Positions 233 to 21,944 of a stretch of DNA of 39,702 bases are shown here, one piece after another (the stretch's first letter is position 1; each line of letters starts with the position of its first letter). Below the pieces are notes generated by a model, which saw nothing but the letters and a program-made list of their open reading frames with translations, did no database searches and had not been told where the DNA came from. Made by a program: the position numbers and the translations under genes. This DNA comes from Prevotella sp. (GTDB lineage: Bacteria; Bacteroidota; Bacteroidia; Bacteroidales; Bacteroidaceae), in NCBI GenBank assembly GCA_017449025.1, contig JAFSKJ010000061.1, positions 1 to 39,702 of the forward strand, given 5' to 3'.

Positions 233-286
233 GTAACTACTCAGCACCCTATGGCAGTAGATAGGAAAGTAACTACTCAGCACCCT
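233..286. repeat. Direct repeat of 18 bp at 36-bp spacing
   Basis: The 18-mer gtaactactcagcaccct occurs at 233-250 and again, identical, at 269-286. A close variant, aactactcatcaccctcaag, recurs at 20695-20714. In both places it lies upstream of the four-unit palindromic array (342-415 and 20898-20971), so it looks like part of one composite intergenic element. Confidence 0.7.
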
Positions 287-341
287 CAAGATGAGTGTCC
301 CATCCGATGCCATAGGCATAGCCATAGAGGCCCAAATCGTA

Positions 342-415
342 GAGTGGCACTTTACGGAGCTAAAGTGGCACTTTTTTGAAATTAAGTGCCACTTTACAGT
401 CGTAAAGTGCCACTC
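342..415. repeat. Four-unit 21-bp palindromic array, copy A
   Basis: Four near-palindromic units of the form AAGTG(G/C)CACTT are centred at 347, 368, 389 and 410, exactly 21 bp apart. The first two have central G and the last two central C, so the array is also an inverted repeat: 342-354 is the reverse complement of 403-415, and 361-373 of 384-396. The flank from 322 to 437 is shared with copy B at 20.9 kb. A minus-strand reading frame crosses it, but its heptad pattern of Trp/Cys-His residues is what 21-bp spacing would produce, so I treat this as a DNA-level element. It could be a MITE or a protein-binding array. Confidence 0.8.
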
Positions 416-526
416 CTCATCAGCCATGGTTCACGCCAGGGGTGCTGAACAGTTACAATAATTCTCTGAAATGCATAAAAAACATAAAAGATAGGGGTTT
501 TCTTCGACAGTCTCGTCGTAATTCAC

Positions 527-20583: not shown

Positions 20584-20682
20584 GAGTCCACTTTAAAAGT
20601 CAAAACCATGATTAAGACGGCAAAAAACGGAGCGTAGTTTTTTAGTTGTTGCTTCCATTTGTTGACTTTTTAAAGTGGACTC
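20584..20682. mobile_element. MITE-like 99-bp element with 20/21-bp terminal inverted repeats
   Basis: The left end gagtccactttaaaagtcaa (20584-20603) is the reverse complement of the right end (20662-20682) apart from one extra A. The 58 bases between them have no gene. Size and termini fit a non-autonomous element or the remnant ends of an insertion sequence. No target-site duplication is clear. Confidence 0.6.
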
Positions 20683-20710
20683 AAGTAGGGTGGAAACTAC
20701 TCATCACCCT

Positions 20711-20867: not shown

Positions 20868-20995
20868 ATGGCGTGAAACATAGAGGTCCCAATCGTAGAG
20901 TGGCACTTTAGGGAGCTAAAGTGGCACTTTTTTGAAATTAAGTGCCACTTTACGGCCGTAAAGTGCCACTCCTCATCCGGCATGGTTCACGCCAT
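20868..20995. repeat. Four-unit 21-bp palindromic array, copy B, with terminal inverted repeats
   Basis: Near-palindromes AGTG(G/C)CACT are centred at 20903, 20924, 20945 and 20966, again exactly 21 bp apart, with the same G,G,C,C order of central bases as copy A. This copy is bounded by a perfect 10-bp inverted repeat, atggcgtgaa (20868-20877) and ttcacgccat (20986-20995). That gives a 128-bp unit resembling a MITE. Copy A keeps the right flank but not the left terminus. Confidence 0.8.
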
Positions 20996-21116
20996 GTGTT
21001 TTGCTGCTTTTTTGGGGAGGGGAAAAGGAAGCTTTCTTCCTGTCATAAGTGGCTTTTAGCGGCCCTTTTTGTTGTAAAGTGTGCAAAAAAGCTAAAAATG
21101 TGGGCAGAAAGAGCGA

Positions 21117-21142
21117 TGTTTCACGGGAAATGTGTACCTTTG
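21117..21142 (+). promoter_or_regulatory. parS-like site and -7 box upstream of parA
   Basis: The 16 bases at 21117-21132 (tgtttcacgggaaatg) match the widely conserved parS consensus (tgtttcacgtgaaaca) at 13 positions; all mismatches are in the right half. A TACCTTTG -7 box follows at 21135-21142, 31 bases before the parA start, with no TTTG at -33. The site would sit across the core promoter, which is suited to ParB autoregulation or may be a degenerate nucleation site. This is inference from pattern only. Confidence 0.5.
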
Positions 21143-21173: not shown

Positions 21174-21944
21174 ATGGGAAAAATCATTGCATTAGCCAAT
21201 CAGAAAGGCGGCGTGGGAAAGACCACGACCACCATTAACCTGGCAGCATCGCTGGCCACACTCGAGAAGTCGGTGCTCGTGGTAGATGCCGACCCGCAGG
21301 CCAACGCCTCCAGCGGCCTGGGCGTTGACATAAAGGAGGTGGACTGTTCACTCTATGAGTGCCTCATCAACAAGGCCGACGTGCACGATGCCATCTACAC
21401 CACCGACATTGAGGGATTAGACATCATACCAAGCCATATCGACTTGGTGGGGGCCGAGATAGAGATGCTGAACTTAGACAACAGAGAGAAGCTGGTAAAG
21501 AACCTGCTTGCCCCCATAGCCTCTGAGTACGACTACATACTCATAGACTGCTCTCCCTCGTTAGGGCTTATCACTGTGAACTCCCTGACGGCAGCCAACT
21601 CGGTAATCATACCCGTTCAGTGCGAGTACTTCGCCTTGGAGGGCATCTCGAAGCTTCTCAACACCATAAAGATAATAAAGACCAAGCTGAACCCGAAGCT
21701 CGAGATAGAGGGTTTTCTGCTGACGATGTACGACTCTCGCCTCCGTCTGGCCAACCAAATCTACGACGAGGTGAAGCGCCACTTCCAGGAGCTGGTGTTC
21801 AAGACAGTGATTCAGCGCAATGTCAAGCTGTCGGAAAGCCCGTCACACGGCCTGCCCGTCATACTCTACGACGCCGACTCCACCGGCTCGAAAAACCACT
21901 TGGCATTGGCAAAAGAGATAATTAGCCGAGGAGAGAGGAACTGA
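21174..21944 (+). CDS. parA: Chromosome-partitioning ATPase ParA/Soj
   Basis: ParA is a cytoplasmic, nucleoid-binding ATPase that positions ParB-parS complexes. The protein has 256 residues from the ATG at 21174; a TTG two codons upstream is less likely. It has the deviant Walker A KGGVGKTT near residues 11-18 with its signature lysine, LVVDADPQAN (Walker A'), and YILIDCSPSLG (Walker B). No N-terminal DNA-binding domain is present, so it is the short chromosomal Soj type. It is followed by parB after 37 bases. Confidence 0.95.
   Translation: MGKIIALANQKGGVGKTTTTINLAASLATLEKSVLVVDADPQANASSGLGVDIKEVDCSLYECLINKADVHDAIYTTDIEGLDIIPSHIDLVGAEIEMLNLDNREKLVKNLLAPIASEYDYILIDCSPSLGLITVNSLTAANSVIIPVQCEYFALEGISKLLNTIKIIKTKLNPKLEIEGFLLTMYDSRLRLANQIYDEVKRHFQELVFKTVIQRNVKLSESPSHGLPVILYDADSTGSKNHLALAKEIISRGERN

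Follow-up and report, generated by a model that had tools for sequence, protein, structure and literature searches.

A four-unit palindromic array with a 21-bp period in Prevotella sp., probably a copy of a dispersed REP/BIME-like repeat

The array and its surroundings

The DNA under study, here called the window, is a stretch of 39,702 nucleotides from Prevotella sp. (GCA_017449025.1, contig JAFSKJ010000061.1), which carries two arrays of near-palindromic units, A and B, together with other repeats (Table 1). The units of array A are centred at 347, 368, 389 and 410, with successive steps of exactly 21 bp, and their central bases from unit 1 to unit 4 are G, G, C and C. These centres, the spacing and the central bases had been given in a first-pass annotation and were all reproduced by coordinates. 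The unit proposed there, AAGTG(G/C)CACTT, is exact for the inner two units, while the outer two (GAGTGGCACTT and AAGTGCCACTC) depart from it by one mismatch each. Over 32 nt, the arms 342-373 and 384-415 show 88% complementarity, and the RNA fold of 322-432 has an energy of -52.3 kcal/mol (z = -8.6), equalled in 0 of 200 shuffles; element B folds at -64.3 kcal/mol. When up to one mismatch is allowed, the window contains nine unit matches, eight in the two arrays and one lone, as compared to a mean of 0.83 in dinucleotide shuffles of the window, none of which (0/100) reached nine. An Rfam covariance-model search of the window at gathering scores returned two tRNAs only and no known RNA at the arrays, and terminator prediction called none at array A.

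Table 1. Positions of the arrays, their spacers and the flanking repeats in the window.
Feature	Position	Strand	Remarks
Flanking repeat GTAACTACTCAGCACCCT, copy 1	233..250	+	repeat comparison
Flanking repeat GTAACTACTCAGCACCCT, copy 2	269..286	+	36 bp after copy 1
Whole element A, approximate	321..438	.	array with flanks GAGGCCCAAATCGTA / CTCATCAGCCATGGTTCACGCCA common to other copies; limits placed by eye, left end degenerate
Array A, four near-palindromic units	342..415	.	units 342-352, 363-373, 384-394 and 405-415
Spacer 1 (TACGGAGCTA)	353..362	.	differs among copies
Central spacer (TTTTGAAATT)	374..383	.	mark of the genome's dominant sub-family, 56/72 arrays read
Spacer 3 (TACAGTCGTA)	395..404	.	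differs among copies
Flanking repeat, inverted copy across array A	440..457	-	repeat comparison
Whole element B	20868..20995	.	terminal inverted repeats ATGGCGTGAAACAT / ATGGTTCACGCCAT; limits placed by eye
Array B, same four-unit core	20898..20971	.	orientation as array A

Several other features accompany the arrays. Members of a repeat family with GTAACTACTCAGCACCC stand on both sides of array A (233-286 direct, 440-457 inverted) and also at 20693-20709. Since a flank related to this family adjoins the array of locus L017, arrays and other repeats are read as forming mosaics. Upstream of copy B, positions 20584-20682 contain another palindromic mini-element, unrelated to the arrays, which has GAGTCCACTTTAAAAGTCAA / TTGACTTTTTAAAGTGGACTC as its inverted ends and looks like a MITE. 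A gene for a ParA-type ATPase lies at 21174-21944, and just before it (21116-21132) is ATGTTTCACGGGAAATG, which we take to resemble a parS site. The first 200 positions of the window (CCCCTGTAAACAGG..., CTCCAGCTCTGCTGGCTTGCC) are similar by eye to array-adjoining stretches in L021 and L030 and are probably a further dispersed repeat. In another genome, G040, a palindrome with AATTTTCTAGAGAATT repeatedly adjoins arrays (e.g., L083, L100, L112), possibly as another mosaic module.

The repeat family in the genome of the window

The genome of the window (G000; 3.5 Mb in 134 contigs, the window being C110) contains 87 exact AAGTGSCACTT-N10-AAGTGSCACTT pairs according to a genome pattern search, and the same 87 were retrieved when spacers of N4-N30 were allowed, all 87 at 21 bp. 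From 73 loci, 72 distinct arrays were read, with four units in 58 cases, three in 10, two in 2, and five and six in one each. After deduplication, 205 of 206 gaps of up to 60 bp between successive units equal 21, the remaining one being 6. The possibility that the array is unique to two loci, raised in the first-pass annotation, is removed by these 72 arrays and by the other species that also bear the unit. Some copies are found no more than about 300 bp from a contig end (e.g., C4:260, C8:142, C25:18, C49:160), and since a dispersed repeat breaks the assembly, the copy counts in this genome are lower bounds.

A dominant sub-family, recognised by the centre TTTTTGAAATTA with up to two mismatches, comprises 56 of the 72 arrays; several of the 16 arrays outside this filter have a common alternative layout with GGATTTCCGTAAAGTGGCACTT. 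Within the 56 core copies (45 distinct), departures from the consensus amount to 1.7% at the non-centre positions of the units, 6.5% in the spacers and 13.4% at the centre base. Given that copies within one genome are of recent common descent, the low variation of the units is partly a result of copying. The long hairpin has two centre pairs, which in the 45 distinct cores fail to pair in 26 of 90 cells; compensating double changes are rare (4 spacer cells and 2 centre cells).

Distribution in other species and in phages

A scan of species genomes with RAGTGSCACTY-N10-RAGTGSCACTY yielded at least 79 stretches among the matches listed, 74 of them titled Prevotella, Prevotellaceae, Bacteroides, Mediterranea or Bacteroidales. 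Five non-Bacteroidota loci (L046, L050, L084, L096, L120) were chance-like and were left out of the pair-spacing counts. The same pattern matched five viral contigs. Viral contigs contain no exact centre of the type of the window's genome, and plasmid and phage records have no match to window 322-432.

A tabulation of unit and spacing in related Bacteroidales genomes, proposed as a check at first pass, showed that the unit recurs at a 21- or 22-bp step, with different spacers, in 14 other genomes of Prevotella and Bacteroides kin. Exact pairs (N4-N30) number 59 in G041, 47 in G042, where one pair among the matches listed is at 22 bp, 25 in G040, and 1 to 3 in each of nine other genomes. A scan of the family (399 genomes, from a larger group) returned four matching genomes: G000 with 87 pairs, G528 with 9 exact pairs (six among the matches listed, all at 22 bp), G529 with 3 and G688 with 2. 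The three pairs of G529 are spaced at 33 bp; they resemble a single inverted-repeat family of their own and were not considered further. When 393 genomes of the order were scanned, the sole match was G000, and none of the 387 outside the family has a unit pair.

The step is also kept by units that do not meet the search pattern. Pairs of this kind in 74 loci are spaced at 21 bp (58), 22 bp (36) or 23 bp (1), and distances up to 20 bp, as well as those between 24 and 41 bp, are not represented; the remaining pairs fall close to multiples of this step, and the distances 55, 76, 96 and 98 are each represented by a single pair. Arrays in other genomes have 2 to 15 units. The mean identity of neighbouring spacers is 60% in G041, 66% in G042 and 78% in G040, and the match to GTGSCAC per position in neighbouring units framed by AA..TT is 82-100%, 61-100% and 70-90%, respectively, with mixed cores such as GTGGCTG, CAGCCAC and GAAGCTG in G042. 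Variable spacing and unconserved units in copies elsewhere had been named at first pass as a refutation; instead, exact pairs in the window's genome are invariably at 21 bp and other species keep the unit and a step of 21 or 22 bp, with other spacers. Only 14 of 137 arrays from seven locus sets lie inside an ORF of at least 100 aa, and 8 of these ORFs are shorter than 145 aa. The repeats are short palindromes, in high copy number and mainly extragenic, as are REP/BIME elements.

Occupied and empty sites

A search for occupied and empty sites, likewise proposed at first pass, was successful at the end of an FHA gene and in a helicase gene. In G000, an element starts in the last codons of the FHA gene (PF00498) and provides its stop codon. 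This gene is present in 44 of 50 genomes, of which 30 loci were fetched, own copy included; in 29 of 29 relatives read, it has its own tail and no array within 400 nt downstream, one relative (L257) having a lone one-mismatch 9-mer 260 nt downstream. The helicase gene (UvrD family, RecB-like, as assigned by NCBIfam models scoring below their cut-offs) contains in G688 four 21-bp units in frame, which read KVPLCDA KVPLYDA EVPLYDA KPLHCES. It is present in 31 of 31 genomes, and 18 of the 20 loci fetched and read have no 21-bp repeat at this site, where the length of the loop varies. Arrays are therefore present in one genome and absent in relatives, both at a gene end and in frame in a gene. The copies are taken to be mobile, because the array stands at the FHA end in G000 and in none of 29 relatives, and because the helicase site is empty in 18 of 20 loci. 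The suggestion of a transposon end made at first pass may accordingly be recast as one of a small mobile repeat, which fits the occupied and empty sites at these two genes.

At the same point of the helicase, G922, from a sister species of G688, has three 21-bp units with the cores CCTCAAC, GTAGAGG and CCTCTAC, mostly with the TACGACGCT spacer, as in G688. A comparison of L176 (G688) with L177 (G922) reveals that the core has turned over, while the period and, for the most part, the spacer are unchanged. A similar in-frame run is found in BioC of G688 (TIGR02072 above cut-off, the matched stretch 17-314 exceeding the 244-position profile), and in three further genomes (L197, L198, L202) other cores are set in the 21-bp layout. 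The 7-bp core appears to be an exchangeable module, while the period and the spacer stay. A generic TTTACGN4TAAA-N3-12-TTTACGN4TAAA search found matches in 9 of 399 genomes, mostly at single places and partly of an unrelated N9 form. For arrays A and B, no orthologous empty site was obtained; several parA loci of relatives, compared with copy B by eye and with minus-strand loci unoriented, seem to have a different, divergent upstream gene.

Inverted pairs and direct repeats

The explanation that the arrays act as RNA, as intrinsic transcription terminators or 3' mRNA-stabilising hairpins whose sequence is just a good stem, draws on Prevotella genomes with few copies and on phages. In these, the centres of adjacent pairs are complementary in 13 of 14 (low-copy Prevotella) and 5 of 6 cases (phages), two pairs being in both sets, and 13 of 34 sides have a T-rich tail. 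Locus L094 is nearly identical to the phage contig L123/L276, and the phage array L125, an in-frame coding repeat, was excluded from the terminator counts. The low-copy set has 22 arrays, 18 with two neighbours, at a median distance of 23 bp from the 3' end of a flanking gene, and in four genomes (L035, L052, L072, L115) arrays follow the gene for an S46 peptidase. After a phage structural gene (189-195 aa; L273-L283), the array is present in 6 of 11 contigs and a variant in L282; the same 3' position is occupied by an unrelated hairpin with a T-run in L275 and L283, by an unrelated hairpin without a T-run in L280, and in L279 by neither array nor hairpin clearly.

Gene order around the arrays differs among genomes. 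On the basis of mechanical ORF calls (some short ORFs being false), small controls and uncorrected p values, gaps holding low-copy arrays are divergent in 0 of 18 cases as compared to 10 of 30 control gaps (p 0.008) and those of G041 (CAMGFM) are convergent in 11 of 28 as compared to 2 of 38 (p 0.001), both of which favour a terminator, whereas convergent gaps in G040 (1/12, control 4/34) and G042 (3/10, control 6/30) reveal no clear 3' bias. Arrays not flanked on both sides by a called gene were left out of these counts (low-copy 1/22, G041 9/40, G000 7/32, G042 8/19, G040 1/15). In G000, 32 arrays comprise 11 in divergent, 5 in convergent and 5 in tandem gaps, 4 in ORFs and 7 without two neighbours, the divergent excess over control gaps having an uncorrected p of 0.10.

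Other properties speak against an RNA role as a general account. Spacer complementarity in the low-copy set was matched by a fraction of 0.0055 of shuffles in one orientation, but this fraction has a mean of 0.058 (0.003-0.207) over random orientations and is not robust, and spacer covariation in the phage arrays shows no excess over shuffles. A test of covariation against conservation, as envisaged in the first-pass annotation, found covariation to be weak in the former set and absent in the latter, and units to be more conserved than spacers in G000 and G041; the terminator explanation is graded slightly lower because of the weak covariation. In G040, G041 and G042, the arrays are mostly direct repeats without a T-tract: complementary centres are rare (3/21, 5/45 and 4/24 pairs, respectively), the centres being mostly equal, spacers pair less than shuffles in any orientation, and T-tails are found on 2/30, 2/76 and 0/38 sides. 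Moreover, an RNA hairpin can form without palindromic arms and without a step of 21-22 bp. The species of the window stands between the two forms, with palindromic four-unit cores and a strong hairpin, no T-tract and no 3' bias; of the 65 distinct adjacent pairs in its arrays, 25 have complementary centres, and a T-tract is found on 1 of 126 sides.

The RNA structure suggested at first pass is consequently retained for the form with two units, as seen in low-copy Prevotella and in phages, and not for the mostly direct-repeat arrays of G040, G041 and G042. Sequence evidence supports, though it does not prove, that this two-unit form acts as a terminator hairpin. Given that the arrays of G000 have neither a T-tract nor a bias toward gene 3' ends, such a role is not transferable to array A, and an origin of the arrays as terminators is considered rather unlikely.

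Other origins of the arrays

A second alternative takes the element for a conventional MITE that a DDE transposon mobilises in trans by way of the terminal inverted repeats. Element B does have such repeats, many copies in G000 have flanks like CATGCCTCATCCGTA/TACGGATGAGGCATG, and the 56 core copies of this genome are near-identical. However, the ends differ by eye among 32 aligned copies, in which no target-site duplication was established by eye, and flanks or terminal inverted repeats of this type are absent from most arrays of other species, which makes this origin unlikely. Neutral slippage of a tandem repeat from one ancestral 21-bp unit, with a period that is not under selection, would account for the arrays of 2 to 15 units in other genomes, mostly direct repeats in G040-G042, and for the core turnover at the helicase site and in L197, L198 and L202. 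Neighbouring spacers in G040-G042 are 60-78% identical, yet the step is never below 21, and the 95 neighbouring pairs not meeting the search pattern keep to 21, 22 and once 23 bp; slippage is accordingly held to be improbable. Movement as REP/REPIN elements by a RAYT (Y1 HUH) transposase is disfavoured and very improbable: although the palindromes are dispersed, 29 of 32 aligned G000 cores have GTAG at their left edge (a tag not general in the arrays of other species), three Y1_Tnp genes score above cut-off in G000, and the available part of one report describes for Bacteroidetes subclasses of TnpA-REP whose atypical flanking structures are also repeated at other places in the genome (PMC6006769), no unit lies around four Y1 hits (within 1.5 kb per side, or 0.5 kb in the case of one flank of L040), L039 and L127 have palindromes of the GGGGACAG type beside their RAYT-sized genes, and the high-copy genomes G041 and G042 (both MAGs of unstated completeness) have no Y1_Tnp hit at E 0.001. 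Lone one-mismatch 9-mers in L127 (927) and L131 (46) were taken as chance.

A mobile repeat with a helical period

The favoured explanation, to which a probability of about 0.6 is assigned, is that array A is a copy of a dispersed, mobile and mainly extragenic palindromic repeat that is REP/BIME-like and apparently represents a separate lineage of repeats in the Bacteroidaceae. The family is multicopy and patchy among species, conserves its unit more than its spacers and has a period of two helical turns (21 bp, in some species 22 bp). A dimeric protein would bind each palindrome on double-stranded DNA, with all copies on one face of the helix, and such binding could maintain the fixed period in both the four-unit and the direct-repeat forms. 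The repeat may be moved by the same dimeric protein or by a transposase acting on a cruciform or single-stranded hairpin, and the hairpin form might be used secondarily for termination. A role on double-stranded DNA is preferred in view of the two-turn step, the dyad unit and the centre base of G or C. A pure RNA role is disfavoured, since it leaves unexplained the palindromic arms, the 21-22 bp step despite divergent spacers, and the direct-repeat arrays. The protein-binding array suggested at first pass fits the rigid period. Less strict cores in G042 (61-100% conserved by position) and G040 (70-90%) count against this explanation, and no binding protein or transposase for the arrays was found.

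A broader and tentative proposal is that of a mobile-repeat class of the Bacteroidaceae with a geometric invariant, AAA-core-TTT every two turns, in which the 7-bp core would be swapped as a module even at the same site in sister species, a putative dimeric protein would both recognise the core and drive the spread of the repeat, and phages and low-copy hosts would have recruited pairs of units as terminators.

Comparison with known systems

The closest resemblance is to the REP/BIME elements of enterobacteria and pseudomonads, including REPINs, as judged from properties that are in part general knowledge and in part drawn from abstracts. Both are short extragenic palindromes in many copies, with mosaic clusters and a patchy distribution among species, and both are frequent at gene 3' ends in some genomes, with terminator-like behaviour. 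The present family differs in its 11-mer unit with a one-base centre, its rigid 21/22-bp step, its arrays of 2-15 units, its sequence and phylum, and in that no RAYT linkage was found. Rickettsia palindromic elements (RPE) are single elements of about 100-150 bp; like them, the present repeat is palindromic, tolerated in frame in genes and also intergenic, and unlike them, it forms 7-codon repeats of a 21-bp unit. To our knowledge, a fixed helical step occurs in neither REP/BIME nor RPE; CIRCE, Fur and other boxes known to us were compared and put aside. As with intrinsic terminators, the two-unit form is a hairpin, often with a T-rich tail, after stop codons; unlike in these, both arms are conserved palindromes in their own right, and the sequence is found again at different genes, in different species and in phages.

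Further repeats share single properties with the family. GTAG- and CGTC-tagged REPs are also palindromic, some of them in replication and repair genes, and the CGTC class is without a dedicated transposase; the spacers of their dimers are mostly 20 to 100 bp, and the available part of the report mentions no fixed helical step, as opposed to the one found here (PMC3733652). PINSR of Prevotella intermedia is likewise intergenic, high-copy and confined to a Prevotella lineage, and is set apart by its description, in the accessible part of its source, as a 188-bp repeat without terminal inverted repeats (PMC4755523). PARCEL repeats, 25-residue repeats in ORFs according to the part of the source available, are also palindromic DNA read as protein, unlike the intergenic 21-bp arrays (PMC2996958).

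Literature searches by sequence and topic, with thin coverage of subscription papers, did not bring up any account of the sequence, of the arrays or of the KVPLYDA heptad, and the family is apparently undescribed so far. It points to a putative DNA-binding protein that could be retrieved with the array as bait. The REP-like repeats of proteobacteria are binding sites and terminators tied to RAYT transposases; Bacteroidaceae repeats that look independent of RAYT, with a strict helical period, in-frame entry and core swap, would constitute a second, independent case of bacteria acquiring such repeats.
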